Shown here piece by piece: positions 26,964 to 39,300 of a DNA stretch of 64,000 nt; the stretch's first letter is position 1, and each line of letters begins with the position of its first letter. Position numbers and translations under genes: made by a program. This stretch comes from Nitrospirota bacterium (GTDB lineage Bacteria; Nitrospirota; Nitrospiria; Nitrospirales; Nitrospiraceae). The notes beneath the pieces are model-generated. The model was not told where the DNA came from, did no database searches, and was given only the letters and a program-made list of their open reading frames with translations. The stretch covers positions 1-64,000 of the forward strand of contig JACRLR010000018.1 of NCBI GenBank assembly GCA_016219645.1, given 5' to 3'.

Positions 26964-27140
26964 GGCAGGGGTGGCCAGGTGCCCTTTTTGCTCGCAGAAC
27001 GCGCACGATGAAACTGTGCTCGTCCGATGCGCGCAGTAAAGGGCAGCCTCGGTCACCCCTGCTAGGAAAGGTATAGAAAATTGAAGATTCTTGTTGGGCA
27101 CGCGCAGTGAAGGGAAGCCTCGGGTACTCCCTTTGGAGCT
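26964..27140. repeat. GC-rich constant-core hairpin R3, plus a fragment
   Basis: The main copy (about 26964-27060) has outer stem AGGGGTGGCCAGGTGCCC / GGGCAGCCTCGGTCACCCCT and core TTGCTCGCAGAACGCGCACG...GATGCGCGCAGT. A piece of the same family (CACGCGCAGTGAAGGGAAGCC, about 27099-27119) follows. Together they fill much of the 342-bp gap before nikR; the remaining 27141-27229 shows nothing recognisable. Confidence 0.8.
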
Positions 27141-31090: not shown

Positions 31091-31459
31091 CTATTCGATC
31101 TTCCGATCGCCGGAAATCTTTGTGGCCGAGGTTACCGGAGGAGCAATCTTGATCTGTGGCCCCTGCACGGTCGGCAGCTGACCTGCTCCCTGGCCTTTGG
31201 TAATCCGCTCATTGTCTGTTTTCATCAGATTCTGCTGGACGTGGGTGTCGTCGTGCGCGGCGGCCTTGAGCTCGGCTTTTTCACCACTGGCGTTAGTCTG
31301 GCCAGGATCGTTGGCAGTCGGCTGGCCTGTCACAGGACTCCCGCTGTTCTTCATCGGGTAGCCTTCATGTTTGGGGAGGAGCGATGGATTCGCCGAGGCC
31401 ATTGATAGGGCAAAGAGGACACCGGAGACAGTGGCAACAGTGCCGATGATGAGCTTCAT
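31091..31459 (-). CDS. Small secreted hypothetical protein
   Basis: About 122 residues. The signal peptide 'IIGTVATVSGVLFALSMASA' is followed by a mature chain rich in Gly, Thr, Asn, Gln and Lys with no Cys. The start is ATG 31459, with AAAGGAG eight bases upstream on the minus strand; the longer frame to 31501 lacks that site. It looks intrinsically disordered. I do not recognise a family. Confidence 0.65.
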   Translation of the reverse strand: MKLIIGTVATVSGVLFALSMASANPSLLPKHEGYPMKNSGSPVTGQPTANDPGQTNASGEKAELKAAAHDDTHVQQNLMKTDNERITKGQGAGQLPTVQGPQIKIAPPVTSATKISGDRKIE

Positions 31460-31571
31460 ACGCCTACTCCTTTGAATAGTTAAATGGTAGCAGGAGGACA
31501 TACATTTTCAACGTCAAGGTCGAATCAAGTGGGGAAGATCATAGCCAGGATGGGGTGTGTCTGTCAAAGGG

Positions 31572-31900
31572 AGAATGGAAGGGGAGTGGCCAGGTGCCCT
31601 TCTTGCTCGCAGAGCCCCCACGATGAAACAGTGGTCGCTCGATGCGCGCAGTAAAGGGCAACCTAGGCCGCTCCCCTTGGGGGCACAGTGGGGGGGGGAT
31701 GAAAAGGGTTGGATGGGTGGTCTGTTGGCCTCCTTTGCTCGCGCCACGCGCACGATAAGGGGATGGAGGGACACCCCTGTTGGTCCTGTGCTCCCGGAAC
31801 GCGCGCCCCCTGAGAAGGGCCTCGTTCGACGGCCGCACGTAAACCAACAGGGGTGTCCTTCCACGAGACAAAAAGAGGCAAGCGTTGCGCGCAATCGAGG
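31572..31900. repeat. GC-rich constant-core hairpins R4 and R5
   Basis: R4 (about 31574-31680): outer stem AGGGGAGTGGCC...GCCGCTCCCCTT, core TTGCTCGCAGAGCCCCCACG...GATGCGCGCAGT. R5 (about 31767-31862): outer stem GGACACCCCTGTTGGT / ACCAACAGGGGTGTCC, core with GAACGCGCGCCC...CTCGTTCGACGGCCGCACGT. A partial core (TTTGCTCGCGCCACGCGCACG) lies between them. The rest of 31502-32138 holds no gene I can support. Confidence 0.8.
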
Positions 31901-32657: not shown

Positions 32658-34463
32658 CTATCGCCGGGCGGGCCGCCGGCGGCCGCGTCCTCGATAGGAT
32701 GGGCCATGGCTGAGACCGGGGAGGCGGATGGTCACGGTGGTGCCTTCATCAGGCGCGCTGCCGATGGTAATGGAGCCGCCATGTTCTTCGACGATCTTCT
32801 TGACCGTGGCGAGACCCAGACCGATCCCGGTTCGCTTCGTGGTGAAAAACGGCTCGAAGACCTTATCGACGATTTCTGCTGGAATGGGCGCCCCGTCATT
32901 CTTGATGAGGATCACATCTTCGACGCCCCGCCCCGCGCGATGTTGGGTGACTTGAATATGGAGATGCCCGCCTGGGCTCATGGCTTCACTCGCGTTCCTG
33001 AAAATACTGAGGAAGACCTGCTGGAGCTTGGCTTCGTCGCCGCGGACGGGCGCGATGACGGTCGCATAGTCTTTGGTCACCTGTATCCTGGTGACTTCGA
33101 AGTCAGTCGCAACAACCGTTAGGGCACTTTCGATCACTTCAGGGATACGGAGGAGCCGTCGAGTCAGTTTGAGTGGTTTGGCAAAATCCAAAATCTCGTT
33201 CAAGATAGCTTCGATACGAATCAGATTGCGCATGGCGTTCTCGACGCGCGTCTGCGGGTCGAAATCGAGGATGCCTTCACCCGTGACTTCTTCCAATTGG
33301 GCGCGGATGGAGGCGAGTGGCTCACGCACTTCAGTAGCCAGAAACATGCTGAACTCCCCGATCGCGGCCTGCCGTTCCTGTTTTCTGATCATGGGTTCAG
33401 ATGGACCTGGAGCTGTTGGGGCTCCGGAGGTTCCGGCCGGCCCAGTGACAGGGGCTTGGCTGGCCGGCGCCGGCGCTTGGAGAAGATCCGCGATCTTCAT
33501 AATCGTCGGCTCAAGCGAGCGGGCATCGGTCTGTTGGTAGCGACCGGCTTCTTTCGAGGCCAAGGTGATCGTCCCGCCGACCTGTCCGCGGACGAAGAAT
33601 GGGACAACGAGGGAAGAAAGAAATCGGTCCTTGAACAGATATTTGTGATCGAGAAATCTCCCCTGTGTAGAGGCCAAATCATGATCCACTCGTGGCTTAC
33701 GATGGCGGACTGCCCAGCCGGACGCTGAGCTGTCGAGCGCGAGGCGGTGGCCCGGTTTCAGATCTTTTTTCCCATCTTTCTGTTCGCTCTTCAGATCGCC
33801 GGCCATTCCCAGCACTTCGACATTGCCGGCAAGGGGATCGTAGTGACAGGTCCAGATGCGATCGTAATCGACGTATTGGCGGGCATCCGTCAAGGCGGCA
33901 ATGATGGTGCTTTGGAGTTCCGGTGTGAGTTGTGACAGTGGAACCGGGAACATGTCTGCGGGAGTGGATGCTGCAGGGACCGGTTCATGCGCGACAAATG
34001 GCCGACTGAGCAGGAGATTCATATCGAACAGGTTTTCGCGATCGAGGGCTTTCGTGACCTCCTCGCCGGCCTGCTCCATCAAGGTTTTTTCTTTTTTCAC
34101 GAACGCGGCGCTTTCTTTTCGTCCAATGACGAGGAAGCCGTACGTCCGGTTACGATGCAGAAGGGGGGCTGCGAGCAACGACTTCGCGCCCGGCGTGATC
34201 AAGCGGAGGCGAATGGTGCGCCCGCTTTCTTGCTCACTCGCGGGAGTTGCTGACGCGACGGCAGGGGCTGAAAGCGCGCGGAGGATGGCTTGGATATCGC
34301 GGGGCGTGAAGCCTCGTGCGGCATGGCCGACGAGTGGACCCTGGTCGCAATGGAACAGGGCGGCGAGGGCTGCCTCGACCGGCAGGTCGTTGAGCACAGA
34401 CGTTAAGGTCCGCTGGAGCGTCGTCTCGGGAATCGGCTTGCTGTGCGGAGCTGTGGACGTCAT
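32658..34463 (-). CDS. GAF-domain sensor kinase-like protein lacking the phospho-acceptor His
   Basis: About 601 residues with no membrane segment. There are two GAF-type sensory domains (about 20-165 and 180-330), a linker rich in Ala/Pro, a HisKA-like helix and a HATPase domain with N-box 'FRNASEAMSPGG', 'VFEPFFTTKRTGIGLGLATVKKIVEEHGG' and 'GTTVTIRLP'. In the H-box the usual 'LAHE(I/V)R.PL' reads LATEVREPL: the phospho-acceptor His is Thr (codon ACT, near residue 374). It may bind ATP and sense signals but cannot autophosphorylate at the normal site. No response regulator is adjacent. ATG 34463 is preferred over the longer frame. Confidence 0.85.
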   Translation of the reverse strand: MTSTAPHSKPIPETTLQRTLTSVLNDLPVEAALAALFHCDQGPLVGHAARGFTPRDIQAILRALSAPAVASATPASEQESGRTIRLRLITPGAKSLLAAPLLHRNRTYGFLVIGRKESAAFVKKEKTLMEQAGEEVTKALDRENLFDMNLLLSRPFVAHEPVPAASTPADMFPVPLSQLTPELQSTIIAALTDARQYVDYDRIWTCHYDPLAGNVEVLGMAGDLKSEQKDGKKDLKPGHRLALDSSASGWAVRHRKPRVDHDLASTQGRFLDHKYLFKDRFLSSLVVPFFVRGQVGGTITLASKEAGRYQQTDARSLEPTIMKIADLLQAPAPASQAPVTGPAGTSGAPTAPGPSEPMIRKQERQAAIGEFSMFLATEVREPLASIRAQLEEVTGEGILDFDPQTRVENAMRNLIRIEAILNEILDFAKPLKLTRRLLRIPEVIESALTVVATDFEVTRIQVTKDYATVIAPVRGDEAKLQQVFLSIFRNASEAMSPGGHLHIQVTQHRAGRGVEDVILIKNDGAPIPAEIVDKVFEPFFTTKRTGIGLGLATVKKIVEEHGGSITIGSAPDEGTTVTIRLPGLSHGPSYRGRGRRRPARR

Positions 34464-34631: not shown

Positions 34632-35090
34632 TCATTCGTCTGGATTGATGATTTTGGGCGGGCGTTGAGGGAACGTCTGACGTTCTGTGTGACGACCGTC
34701 AGAGGTCCATGCATTGAGGATCATGGTAACCAGACTAATCACGACCGCACCACCTACGGCAGGCCAGAATCCCGCTACCGAGAATCCGGTGACAAGGTAT
34801 GAAGTTAATTCCAGCAAGAGCGCGTTGACGACGATGAGAAAGAGCCCCAGCGAGAGGACGATCAAGGGAAGGATCAAGACAAAGAGAAGCGGCCGGACCA
34901 AGAGGTTCAGAAATGTGAGCACGAGGACCGCTGCGAGTCCCGCGCTGAACGAATGAACCTCAAGGCCCGGCACAATCATGACGGCCAGAAATACCGCGAT
35001 GCCCGTAATCAGGACTCGAATGAACGCGGTGCGAATCCCGCCACTCAAAAAATGGTTCTTCACCTCACCTGTAAACTGAAACGGTGGCAT
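34632..35090 (-). CDS. Phage-holin-family-IV-like membrane protein
   Basis: The 152 residues have four hydrophobic segments with 'GLAAVLVLTFLNLLVRPLLFVLILPLIVLSLGLF', the hallmark of the widespread bacterial holin-superfamily-IV membrane proteins (PF04020-like). These are chromosomal inner-membrane proteins of unclear function, not evidence of a prophage. It lies 8 bp downstream of the DUF5666-like gene, so the two are probably cotranscribed. Confidence 0.8.
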   Translation of the reverse strand: MPPFQFTGEVKNHFLSGGIRTAFIRVLITGIAVFLAVMIVPGLEVHSFSAGLAAVLVLTFLNLLVRPLLFVLILPLIVLSLGLFLIVVNALLLELTSYLVTGFSVAGFWPAVGGAVVISLVTMILNAWTSDGRHTERQTFPQRPPKIINPDE

Positions 35091-35098
35091 CGGGCACC

Positions 35099-35455
35099 CT
35101 ACTCAACCGGAACCGGCTCGATGGAAATCGGTACGCGTCTGGCCGTGGAAAAATGAATTTCAGTAGCGAGCAACAGCGGATCGCCTTTTTTGGCCCCCTT
35201 TTTCTCGTTCTTTGTGGCAACGATAATCACGCGATCGCCCACCTCAGGCATGGTGGTGCCTTTCGGATTGTGCTGGTCTTTGAATTTGGTCTGCTTGTTG
35301 ACCTGCAGGTCCACCAGGCCCTTGGATGTTTTGATCTCAATGTGTTTTGCATCAATGGCCATCACGGTGCCGAGCACATGCTGGTCGGCGCCGTGGACGA
35401 AACTGGGCGTGGACATGAAGAGGCCGACAACCGCCACCATCAGATATAACCACAT
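35099..35455 (-). CDS. Exported small beta-rich protein, DUF5666-like
   Basis: It has 118 residues with a signal peptide (about 1-22, ending VHG-A). The mature domain 'VLGTVMAIDAKHIEIKTSKGLVDLQVNKQTKF' and 'EVGDRVIIVA' has the OB-like pattern of small periplasmic DUF5666-type domains. Ligand unknown. It has a good ribosome-binding site (GGAGAAAG) and precedes the holin-like gene. Confidence 0.65.
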   Translation of the reverse strand: MWLYLMVAVVGLFMSTPSFVHGADQHVLGTVMAIDAKHIEIKTSKGLVDLQVNKQTKFKDQHNPKGTTMPEVGDRVIIVATKNEKKGAKKGDPLLLATEIHFSTARRVPISIEPVPVE

Positions 35456-35625: not shown

Positions 35626-36435
35626 TCAGCCAGACCGAGAGGTACTGTGTGGTCTTGTGAGACGAAACAGCAGTAGTGCAAGGACGGGGAGGTGCATCAG
35701 CAAACCGCTTATTCCTATGAGCAATTCGCTGATCCAAAACGCCACACTGAGATTGAAGGCCAGGATGCCATGGTAGAGGCCGACGCCCAGTAGGAGGTGA
35801 GGAGTGACCGATGGAGGCGTCGAAAGTGCGGAGAGTCGTCGCTCGATCGGAAAATAGATGGCGAGAGAGATGAGTCCGACGACAATCCACCCCGCATAGT
35901 TGGTGAGCGGCACGCCAAAGTGAATGCCTGGATCAGCGTAATGATAAATCTTCCCTAAAAACCAGCGCTCGCCGCGGAGGGCCACGGGATCGATGACCAT
36001 ATCGATTAATGCAAACAAGCAGGCAGTGATCAACAGCACGGGCCAACTGGTTCGTGCTGCGATATCGAAACGCAGTGGCTTGAGCAGCGGTTGAGTGGAA
36101 GGCGAGGACTGGTCGATTGGGAGGACGAGACAGAGCGCAACGCAGTAGGCGGCGTACAGCAGAAAACTGAACGAGATCGAAGCCATGATGGGGACGTTGA
36201 AGAAGTAGAGTTCCTGGCCCATGGTCGAACCGTTGTAGATGTACCATCCGAAGGGAATGCCGGTACGCGTGGACGAGAATTCACAGATAAGGGCCGTGGC
36301 CCAACTGATCAGCCAGAATCGCCAGGTTCTCGGCCAACCGATCAGCTGGATCGCAGCAAACAGGAACGCGGCCAGGAAGAGGAAGACGTAGGGGCGAAAG
36401 AGGATGGTTTTCAGGAAGAGGGTGAAAAAGTCCAT
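35626..36435 (-). CDS. cruF: Carotenoid biosynthesis membrane protein (CruF-type)
   Basis: About 269 residues with seven to eight transmembrane segments. The pattern 'STRTGIPFGWY.Y', 'G.ELYFFNVPIMASISFSFLLYAAY' and 'DMVIDPVALRGERWFLGKIYHY' with 'FGVPLTNYAGW' is that of the CruF carotenoid hydratase family, which adds water across the terminal double bond of acyclic carotenoid ends. The start is ATG 36435. It lies in a minus-strand run with hpnA and ispA, which supply hopanoid and prenyl-diphosphate functions. Confidence 0.85.
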   Translation of the reverse strand: MDFFTLFLKTILFRPYVFLFLAAFLFAAIQLIGWPRTWRFWLISWATALICEFSSTRTGIPFGWYIYNGSTMGQELYFFNVPIMASISFSFLLYAAYCVALCLVLPIDQSSPSTQPLLKPLRFDIAARTSWPVLLITACLFALIDMVIDPVALRGERWFLGKIYHYADPGIHFGVPLTNYAGWIVVGLISLAIYFPIERRLSALSTPPSVTPHLLLGVGLYHGILAFNLSVAFWISELLIGISGLLMHLPVLALLLFRLTRPHSTSRSG

Positions 36436-36444
36436 CGATGGGTA

Positions 36445-36520
36445 ATGGTAAATGGTCAAGGTTGAATTTAAGAGATTCTGAGGAGTCCACCATTAAACAT
36501 AAACCATTCACCATTCGCAG
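36445..36520. repeat. ATGGTAA-word fold-back
   Basis: GGTAATGGTAAATGGTCAAGG on the left is mirrored by CCATTAAACATAAACCATTC and following words on the right. It is another word-repeat hairpin, directly after hpnA and in front of cruF. Confidence 0.65.
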
Positions 36521-37504
36521 TTACGCATAGTGATGATCCCGGAACCAACGCACGGCCTTTTCCAGCGCAACCTCCGGTGGTGTCTGGGGGATGCCAAGTT
36601 CCCTGATCGCTTTACTGCAGTCGTAGTGCATCTTGTACTTGGCCATCTTCACCCCTTCGAGCGGAATCCGCGGGGGCTGGCCAGTCATGTTAGCGACCCA
36701 TAGATTCAGATAGGCCAAGGGAAGAATCGCGAGTCGTGGCAGTTTGATCGTGGGCGCCTTCACGCCGCTCAGGCGGCTCAAGATCTCAAGCACCTCACGC
36801 AACATCAAGTTCTTGCCGCCCAAAATGTAGCGCTCACCGGTCCGGCCCTTTTCCATCGCGAGCAGATGGCCGGCGGCCACGTCATCGACGTCGACAATAT
36901 TCAATCCGGTTTCAATATAGGCCGGCATGCGGCCTTTCATGAAATCGACGACGATCTGTCCTGTCGGGGTTGGTTTCACATCGGCTGCGCCGACCGGGGC
37001 GCTCGGATTCACGATGACCACCGGCAGCCCGGCCTTCGCGAGCTTCAAGACCTCTTGCTCTGCCAGGTACTTCGATCGTTTGTAATGTCCCGCCATCTGT
37101 TCGAGCGAGACGGGCGTCTCCTCCGTACCGAGTCCTCCGCTCGGGGGGAGGCCAATCGCCCCGATGGTGCTGCAGTAGACGATCCGTTCGGTGCCAACGT
37201 CCCGGGCCGCCTCCAATAGATTTTTTGTACCGAGGACGTTGACGTCGTAAAAGATCGAAGGATCTTTGGCCCAGAGCGCATAGTGGGCTGCCACGTGGTA
37301 GAGCTGGCTGCAACCGGTGAGGGCGCTTCGCAACGAGGCCTGATCACGCAGATCACCCGTGACCAGCTCATGAGGCAATCCCTGTAGATTCTGGAGATCG
37401 GATCCGCCGCGGGCAATGACTCGGACGTCGATGCCGCGTCTGACCAGCGCACGTGCGACTGCCCCGCCGACAAATCCGGTTGCGCCGGTGACGAGAGCCT
37501 TCAT
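36521..37504 (-). CDS. hpnA: Hopanoid-associated sugar epimerase HpnA
   Basis: This 327-residue extended short-chain dehydrogenase has 'VTGATGFVGGAVARAL' (NAD site), 'YCSTIGAIG', the catalytic 'YKRSKYLAE' (YxxxK) and the HpnA-typical tail 'PRIPLEGVKMAKYKMHYDCSKA..ELG'. HpnA is thought to modify the side-chain sugar of extended hopanoids. It sits between ispA and a carotenoid gene, suggesting an isoprenoid-lipid neighbourhood. Hopene cyclase (shc) is not in the window. Confidence 0.88.
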   Translation of the reverse strand: MKALVTGATGFVGGAVARALVRRGIDVRVIARGGSDLQNLQGLPHELVTGDLRDQASLRSALTGCSQLYHVAAHYALWAKDPSIFYDVNVLGTKNLLEAARDVGTERIVYCSTIGAIGLPPSGGLGTEETPVSLEQMAGHYKRSKYLAEQEVLKLAKAGLPVVIVNPSAPVGAADVKPTPTGQIVVDFMKGRMPAYIETGLNIVDVDDVAAGHLLAMEKGRTGERYILGGKNLMLREVLEILSRLSGVKAPTIKLPRLAILPLAYLNLWVANMTGQPPRIPLEGVKMAKYKMHYDCSKAIRELGIPQTPPEVALEKAVRWFRDHHYA

Positions 37505-37613: not shown

Positions 37614-38504
37614 TCAGTTCTTCCGAGAGGTGATATATCGGGCCAGTTCGCGGAGCGGGTCGGCGGCCGGGCCGAACGGGGAGAGGCGTGTGATCGCACG
37701 GGCCACACAGTCGTCCGCCAATTTTCTCGCTCCCTCTGTCCCGTAGAACGTCGGATAGGTTTTCTTCCCTCTTTCCGCGTCGGTATTGGGGTTCTTGCCC
37801 AGTTCCTCGCGGGTTCCTGTCACGTTGAGCACATCATCCGCGATCTGGAACGCCAGTCCAACATCTTCGGCATAGCTCGTAAGGTCATCCAGCGGTCGAT
37901 CCTCTGCGCCGGCGGCAATGGCGCCCATCCGCACCGCCGCGCGGATCAACATGCCGGTTTTATGCTTGTGGATGTTCTGGAGTGTCGGAAGATCGATGTC
38001 TTTATTTTCAGCCTGGATATCGAACACCTGACCACCCACCATCCCCACGTTTCCCGAGCCATGCGCCAATTCTTGAATCAACCGCACTTGGCGTGCCGGG
38101 TCGCAGCCCTTCATCAGATCCGGACGGCTGCAGAGATCGAATGCCATCGTCAGCAACGCATCGCCTGCCAATATCGCCATCGCGTCGCCGAACACTTTGT
38201 GGTTCGTCGGATTCCCACGGCGGAAGTCGTCGTTATCCATTGCGGGCAAGTCGTCGTGAATCAAAGAATAGGTGTGAATCAATTCCAACGAGCAGGCAAT
38301 CGGCATCAATCCCGGCGCCGGCTGTCCTACCGCTTCTGCCGCGGCGATAGCCAGGATAGGGCGGACGCGCTTTCCTCCCGCCATGAGACTGTATCGCATG
38401 CTCTCATGCAGCGTTGTCGGTGGTGTGGTGGAGGTGGGACTGACGGAGTCCAGAAATCGATCGACCTCAACCCTCTTCTGTTCGAGGTAGTCCTTGATAT
38501 TCAT
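37614..38504 (-). CDS. ispA: Farnesyl/geranyl diphosphate synthase
   Basis: The 296 residues are a trans-prenyltransferase with 'GGKRVRPIL', the first Asp-rich motif 'IHDDLPAMDND' preceded by 'LIHTYSL', 'GDALLT.AF', and the second Asp-rich motif 'FQIADDVLNVTG', plus 'DAERGKKTYPT'. It condenses IPP with DMAPP/GPP to C15 (possibly C20) diphosphate in the cytoplasm. ATG 38504 is the natural start; the frame continues upstream only through a GC-rich repeat. It feeds the hopanoid and carotenoid steps encoded downstream. Confidence 0.92.
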   Translation of the reverse strand: MNIKDYLEQKRVEVDRFLDSVSPTSTTPPTTLHESMRYSLMAGGKRVRPILAIAAAEAVGQPAPGLMPIACSLELIHTYSLIHDDLPAMDNDDFRRGNPTNHKVFGDAMAILAGDALLTMAFDLCSRPDLMKGCDPARQVRLIQELAHGSGNVGMVGGQVFDIQAENKDIDLPTLQNIHKHKTGMLIRAAVRMGAIAAGAEDRPLDDLTSYAEDVGLAFQIADDVLNVTGTREELGKNPNTDAERGKKTYPTFYGTEGARKLADDCVARAITRLSPFGPAADPLRELARYITSRKN

Positions 38505-38584
38505 AGGGGTAAGGCTGGGCTCGTCACAACAGGCCCTGAATCCGCTCGGAGCGTAACAAAAGGCCTGGAGGCTGTCAAACAAGA

Positions 38585-38690
38585 GGGGGAGGGGAACAGC
38601 CAGACCATCCTTCTTGCTCGCAGAACGCGCACGATCAGAATGTGCTCGTCCGATGCGCGCAGTGAAGGACAGTCTGGCTGTTCCCCTCAA
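38585..38690. repeat. GC-rich constant-core hairpin R6
   Basis: This is the cleanest member. GGGGAACAGCCAGAC pairs perfectly with GTCTGGCTGTTCCCC, then ATCCTTC/GAAGGA(C), enclosing TTGCTCGCAGAACGCGCACG and GTGCTCGTCCGATGCGCGCAG. Confidence 0.92.
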
Positions 38691-38876
38691 GGCCAAAGTG
38701 GGAAAATTGGAAGGCCTTCGCCCGAGCTAATGGCACGTTCCGGTGTGCCAGTGAGCGGGCGGGTGAGAAAGCTGCGCGCACAGTGGGAGCCCTATGAGAC
38801 CCCTCTCCTTTGAAAAGAAACGAGCAATCTCAAAGGGCAATAAGGGAGTTTCGACTGGCTCTGTCAAAGCAGGGCG

Positions 38877-39119: not shown

Positions 39120-39193
39120 AGTTCGATGGCTGATTCTGATCGCCGGTGGGAATATAAATGTTCCTTCCAAGAGTCCCCAATCTCTCATACAGC

Positions 39194-39300
39194 TCTTAAG
39201 GGGAGTGGCCAAGGCTGCCCTTTACTGCGCGCGTCCAACGAGGGCCTTCCGAGGCCGCGCGTTGCGCGAGCACAGAAGATCATCAGGCCCCATCCCCTCC
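39194..39300. repeat. GC-rich constant-core hairpin R7
   Basis: Outer arms AAGGGGAGTGGCC / GGCCCCATCCCCTCC, core ACTGCGCGCGTCCAACGAGG...CCGCGCGTTGCGCGAGCACA. It lies just upstream of the zinc-finger gene. Confidence 0.8.

Follow-up and report, generated by a model that had tools for sequence, protein, structure and literature searches.

A sensor kinase with threonine where the phospho-acceptor histidine belongs could be a decaying gene, a sequencing error or a protein that signals in another way. We asked which of these applies to a gene in a stretch of 64,000 nucleotides from a Nitrospirota bacterium of the Nitrospiraceae (contig JACRLR010000018.1, positions 1 to 64,000), hereafter the window, and, if the protein does signal, how it might do so.

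Domain architecture of P0001

The open reading frame runs from 34463 down to 32658 and its product, P0001, is a soluble protein. Domain limits were taken from Pfam and from a structure model, giving the following features:

32658..34463, minus strand: GAF-GAF-DHp-CA pseudo-histidine kinase P0001, 601 aa, stop codon inside the span
34014..34427, minus strand: GAF1, residues 13-150 (Pfam GAF_3 at 63-142; strands and helices of the model at 15-142)
33474..33929, minus strand: GAF2, residues 179-330 (Pfam GAF at 183-315; invariant core in 37 orthologs)
33174..33395, minus strand: DHp/HisKA-like dimerisation helices, residues 357-430 (Pfam HisKA at 370-429, below cut-off; helices 358-395 and 401-428)
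33333..33335, minus strand: Thr377 codon ACT, phospho-acceptor site, in the H-box LATEVREPL
32715..33173, minus strand: CA/HATPase_c, residues 431-583 (Pfam HATPase_c at 475-582; VIA-align to ZraS, DivL and ThkA)
32661..32714, minus strand: Arg-rich C-terminal tail, residues 584-601 (R+K count, last 18 residues)

An earlier sequence-only reading had described a sensor kinase with two GAF domains and a threonine codon, ACT, in the H-box. The letters are correct, with the codon at 33335-33333, and both GAF domains match Pfam, which finds them instead of any PAS domain in P0001. HATPase_c is also a Pfam match (84.4 bits), and the HisKA score is 24.7 bits for the whole protein against a Pfam cut-off of 26.9, and 28.9 bits in the genome scan. 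The structure model (mean pLDDT 74.8, pTM 0.35) is good for the domains and not for their arrangement; it aligned with ZraS (Z 23.0, 225 residues, rmsd 6.3), with the DivL kinase core (Z 21.4, 218 residues, rmsd 7.1) and with the ThkA CA domain (Z 21.4, 144 residues, rmsd 1.7). By DHp-CA sequence, the nearest proteins are HisKA kinases of the AtoS/ZraS/NtrB type (AtoS model E 3.7e-50; ZraS structure 9jfj E 1e-28), and P0001 falls far below the cut-offs of the NCBIfam AtoS and ZraS equivalogs (170.9 against 646 bits and 134.3 against 479 bits). Kinases of this type have the histidine, an aspartate in the G1 box and NtrC-type partners. Judging from the fold, the family likely had a His-bearing ancestor.

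The acceptor histidine is absent across the order

We searched 61 genomes, the own genome and 60 relatives from genus to order, and found matches in all of them and clear orthologs in most; named matches came from Nitrospira and other Nitrospirales, including Candidatus Nitrospira defluvii. The orthologs come from genome families f1 to f4, which are the search tool's labels, with f2 and f4 represented by 7 and 4 loci. An ortholog-level match was present in 81 of the 82 sampled f1 and f3 genomes (the exception being G018) and in none of the 34 genomes of the class that lie outside the order.

The 193 loci carrying the gene reduced to 154 distinct proteins, 4 of which do not cover the acceptor site, leaving 150 to be counted. 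The count is of fetched loci, with some genomes that have fragments alone (G016, G034, G055 and G059) left out, and a deltaproteobacterial histidine kinase with His (L151) was dropped beforehand as a non-ortholog that matches over the kinase core only. At site 377 these 150 orthologs carry Thr in 134, Gln in 7, Ala in 4, Gly in 2, Ser in 2 and Met in 1, and neither His nor Tyr in any. Gln is the residue of f2, Ala arises in two separate lineages, Gly or Ser occurs in f4, and Met is found as well. This variation makes it unlikely that site 377 is an obligatory phospho-acceptor. One ortholog (L249, G276:C12:195256-197066) is in two pieces, matching 2-292 and 309-598 of the model, by frameshift or assembly error.

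In the own genome there are 28 HisKA matches, P0001 included, one of them outside the profile coverage, and all 26 of the other aligned kinases have the histidine. An apparent threonine at this site in two of these (L164 and L165) was a misalignment: ELRTPM is preceded there by "msh" and "vsh", which shows the histidine to be present. According to PMC12632262, 722 of 76,471 HisKA domains (0.9%) lack the histidine. Given this base rate, the 26 of 26 other kinases with His and the 0 of 150 orthologs with it, Thr377 is not a product of chance or of sequencing error. The orthologs thus rule out both a sequencing error and a recent point mutation, and His-bearing orthologs, which the sequence-only reading had named as evidence against itself, were not found among the 150.

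We also looked for a His-bearing sister of the same architecture outside the order and found none at ortholog level among the 34 class genomes; the best kinase matches of 6 of these 34 genomes align over the kinase core and carry the histidine. As genomes of the order carry a non-His ortholog and the sampled ones outside it have no ortholog-level match, the loss of the histidine dates back, by this distribution of sequences, at least to the origin of the order.

Selection on the pseudokinase gene

A tree of the 143 orthologs of full length places 39 codon changes but 7 amino-acid changes at site 377, and the threonines of f1 and f3 use all of ACG (55), ACA (30), ACC (24) and ACT (19). For comparison we chose a canonical kinase that the same genomes encode (G000 C18:93.9 kb, a 585-aa frame), which has the histidine in 20/20; with this as the control, we measured pN/pS over the 14 close genomes out of those 20. 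The ratio was 0.037 for the pseudokinase against 0.046 for the control in the DHp domain, 0.074 against 0.111 in the CA domain, and 0 against 0.034 within 10 codons of the acceptor. The pseudokinase gene is constrained around Thr377 at least as strongly as a normal kinase.

A decaying gene, a point mutation or a sequencing error would fit the motifs lost in f4 and the one broken copy in G276, but order-wide loss combined with strong purifying selection counters it, and we give it practically no chance. With the histidine lost across the order and the protein under strong selection, it very probably signals by some route other than His phosphotransfer. The proposal of a regulatory pseudokinase is thus well supported, by the order-wide substitution, the absence of His orthologs and selection equal to that on a canonical kinase.

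Constraint is unevenly spread over the protein. Mean entropy over the family is lowest in DHp (0.64), followed by CA (0.92), the tail (0.94), GAF2 (1.09) and GAF1 (1.41). In an alignment of 37 orthologs, single-residue invariance clusters in GAF2, where S246, G249, W250, R253, H254, R258, D260, L263-F270 and D272 are identical in 37/37. Used as a query, the GAF2 segment matched strongly once in each genome of the order; all its other matches were weak GAF matches, the best at 2.1e-7. Heme or an Fe-S cluster in the GAF domains was considered and set aside, the P0001 cysteines C39 and C206 not being conserved in this 37-ortholog alignment (A1).

ATP-binding boxes and their loss in one family

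To the sequence-only reading the ATP-binding N, F and G boxes had looked intact. This holds for the F box, Lys543 and the G2 glycines; it does not hold for the N box, whose first Asn is Ser486, or for the G1 box (N522-D-G-A-P526), which reads NDGAPIP, an NxGxP variant and not DxGxG. In 32 aligned CA rows from the own genome, some of them fragments of one protein, the first N-box Asn is present in 30/32, the G1 Asp in 32/32 and Gly at the position of Pro526 in 32/32. N490 and the F and G2 boxes of the CA domain are retained in 140-141 of 143 orthologs.

We rejected the G1 asparagine as proof against ATP binding. ThkA (Thermotoga TM1359, 3a0t) shares the NxGxPIP variant with P0001, its G1 box being NSGPPIP, and its structure was solved with ADP and Mg; the G1 change alone therefore does not exclude nucleotide binding. 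Unlike P0001, ThkA has the histidine.

In f4 there has been a second loss. The f4 orthologs (L047-L050; 28-32% identity), with Gly or Ser at the acceptor position, have Cys for N490, lack the G1, F and G2 motifs where these are covered, and have a shortened ATP-lid region. They retain GAF2, the end of the DHp domain (K429-P430-L431) and the basic, Arg-rich tail. A structure model of one of them (L048) matches histidine kinase CA domains (NtrB 1r62, Z 18.7, 124 residues, rmsd 1.4), though its alignment held kinase-intact homologs, which favours this fold. The family is tied to the rest by sequence, and its gene neighbourhood differs. Should the f4 proteins be functional, the core function can do without ATP chemistry. 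Both the loss of ATP motifs in this family and the non-canonical N and G1 boxes weaken the suggestion that P0001 is an ATP sensor. Separately, two f4 loci (L270 and L278) hold an odd HisKA kinase with the H box AHALKDPL, in which Ala replaces the acid after His, and the G1 box NEGPRIH.

These data bear on the possibility that P0001 is a Ser/Thr-type kinase whose CA domain phosphorylates Thr377 or a Ser/Thr of a substrate, for instance a sigma factor, as has been proposed for the plant chloroplast sensor kinase (CSK). Strong selection holds the threonine in families f1 and f3, both the F and the G2 box persist, and ThkA was solved with ADP and Mg despite its G1 variant; in addition, PMC6949291 describes CSK as having a GAF domain, having lost its histidine and response regulator, and showing Ser188 phosphorylation in Arabidopsis. 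However, Ala, Met and Gln substitute for Thr in lineages that retain the ATP boxes, Ser486 and Asn522 differ from the other kinases of the own genome, and the ATP motifs are wholly lost in f4. We consider this type of kinase unlikely.

C-terminal tail and genomic setting

The last 18 residues hold at least 5 Arg and Lys in the 143 full-length orthologs, with a median of 7 and a median of 0 acidic residues. In 26 other kinases of the own genome the Arg and Lys count has a median of 2 and does not exceed 5. The tail is of low confidence in the model.

To characterize the setting of the gene, we annotated its neighbors, whose functions are given here as family names:

31091..31501, minus strand: small exported protein (family 1), downstream; most conserved neighbor, with a KHxGYP-like motif
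34632..35090, minus strand: PF04020 (Phage_holin_4_2) membrane protein, upstream
35099..35455, minus strand: small protein with weak DUF5666 similarity, below cut-off, upstream
35626..36459, minus strand: Caroten_synth (CruF-like) membrane protein, by family match
36521..37504, minus strand: HpnA, hopanoid-associated sugar epimerase (TIGR03466, 467 bits against a cut-off of 368)
37614..38696, minus strand: farnesyl diphosphate synthase-type polyprenyl synthase (NF045485, PF00348), true start probably downstream of the listed ORF

In f1 and f3 the order, all on the same strand, is the FPP synthase-type gene, HpnA, the CruF-like gene and PF04020, then the pseudokinase and the small exported protein. 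Among loci with enough flank, the PF04020 gene is present in 54/61 for f1, 18/18 for f3, 0/7 for f2 and 0/3 for f4, and the exported-protein gene lies downstream in 45/47 for f1, 11/14 for f3, 5/6 for f2 and 0/2 for f4. The exported protein at 31091-31501 had no Pfam or NCBIfam match. A dispersed 92-nt repeat also occurs in the window (26968-27059, 31583-31674 and 38594-38685; the later copies are 85% and 74% identical to the first), with inverted relatives near 39170-39240; one copy lies in extra DNA that separates the pseudokinase from its downstream gene.

No linked response regulator was found among the characterised conserved neighbor families. This and the adjoining membrane-lipid and isoprenoid genes would suit a protein with no two-component role at all, in which a GAF-gated dimer uses its Arg-rich, RG-type C-terminus as the output, binding DNA, RNA or membrane. 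The tail is present in 143/143 full-length orthologs, including those of f4, and other kinases of the own genome are without it. Yet DHp is the most constrained domain, which is unexpected if it served mere dimerisation, and the tail is variable in sequence and poorly modeled. We rate an output through the tail as improbable, to the same degree as the Ser/Thr-type kinase.

Candidate partners

HisKA phosphatases use Thr or Asn at position H+4. Asn or Thr stands there in 25/27 aligned rows of the other own-genome kinases, against Glu in 132/143 orthologs of the pseudokinase and Arg in 7 (f2), which disfavors a role solely as a phosphatase acting on a response regulator, for which the histidine would be dispensable. 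Also against this role, there is no linked receiver, and PMC12632262 argues that phosphatase activity is not a general role of pseudo-histidine kinases. In its favor, the same paper states that the histidine is not essential to HisKA phosphatase activity, and an acid, E378, lies beside the acceptor site (Glu in 138/143, Asp in the other 5). A phosphatase-only role is in our view very unlikely.

We then considered genomes with few kinases. The reduced genomes G015, G020 and G211 (1.7-1.8 Mb) have 6, 7 and 7 HisKA matches, the pseudokinase included, and of the 22 receivers that score over the cut-off, 21 have the ATPase domain of another kinase within about 2 kb; the one receiver without such a domain nearby is a single-domain protein in G020. 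With 21/22 receivers near other kinases, none stands out as the pseudokinase's own. A NarL-type receiver that seemed to be an orphan in the reduced genomes was dropped as a partner, since its own HisKA_3 kinase is adjacent. At L312:4702-6598 (with equivalents at L313-L315, L317 and L319) we noted a HisKA_3 kinase whose sensor resembles an NAD(P)-binding Rossmann domain (DapB_N/GFO_IDH_MocA) and which adjoins a NarL-type receiver and, as apparent by eye, rplI, glyA and nrdR; this kinase is possibly a redox sensor.

A single-copy pseudo-receiver occurs in 75/78 genomes of the order (G000:C67:69953-70342; also L322, L323 and L324-L328). Asn occupies what appears to be its phospho-acceptor position, and the 6 distinct copies examined read ILNMND. 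As a partner it is a lead only, for G018 has the pseudo-receiver without the pseudokinase and any core gene would co-occur in this way. In a phosphate-free module, the GAF-gated pseudokinase would act with a phosphorylation-dead partner of this kind, or through its tail on nucleic acid or membrane, to link a metabolite to the isoprenoid and hopanoid membrane genes; we hold this to be a little less probable than either the Ser/Thr-type kinase or the tail output, and somewhat less remote than the phosphatase.

Comparison with known systems and proposed mechanism

The Nitrospirales pseudokinase family was not named in the open-licence literature that we searched. We compared it with three known proteins. 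DivL of Caulobacter resembles P0001 in having a histidine kinase fold, a non-His acceptor site, retained boxes and a conserved patch around the site; in PMC4211667, that site is Tyr (Ala in one homolog) and the protein shows no autokinase activity. DivL differs in its PAS sensors, its alphaproteobacterial origin and its binding of DivK~P; the P0001 family has GAF-GAF sensors, an Arg-rich tail, and Thr, Gln, Ala, Gly, Ser or Met at the site. CSK is the closest precedent in architecture and history, being a soluble GAF-containing histidine kinase whose green-lineage members lost the histidine and the response regulator, according to PMC6949291. Unlike P0001, it has orthologs in cyanobacteria that bear the histidine, and its GAF domain carries an Fe-S cysteine, whereas we found no His-bearing ortholog of the P0001 family and no invariant or nearly invariant cysteine in the 37-sequence alignment, which does not extend to the CSK cysteine itself. 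RocA of group A Streptococcus is a pseudokinase reported, in PMC7028121, to modulate a true kinase, CovS; unlike P0001 it is membrane-bound and still has its (dispensable) histidine. By analogy with DivL and RocA, it is plausible that P0001 modulates another kinase.

With somewhat more than even confidence, we propose that P0001 is an order-wide, single-copy regulatory pseudo-histidine kinase, a soluble dimer that is ligand-gated and has a contact-based output. GAF2, with its nearly invariant motif, would bind a small ligand, and the linker would relay the ligand state to the DHp-CA core. A nucleotide-binding CA domain may act structurally or allosterically in this core and not as a kinase. 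The DHp face that is conserved around Thr377 would contact and bias a partner, which may be a receiver or a genuine histidine kinase, with the Arg-rich tail anchoring the complex to an acidic surface. Two findings run counter to this proposal: Thr is strongly retained in f1 and f3, as phosphorylation of Thr would also predict, and the F and G2 boxes and N490 are conserved beyond the needs of a pure scaffold.

Pseudo-histidine kinases are a rare kind of protein that is already known, and few have been studied. This one is nearly universal in the order to which the main nitrite oxidisers belong and is retained even where kinases are few. As a second-step pseudokinase, f4 offers a natural experiment on which parts of the histidine kinase core serve signalling without phosphotransfer, and the invariant GAF2 and the conserved isoprenoid-gene setting provide handles for finding the signal.
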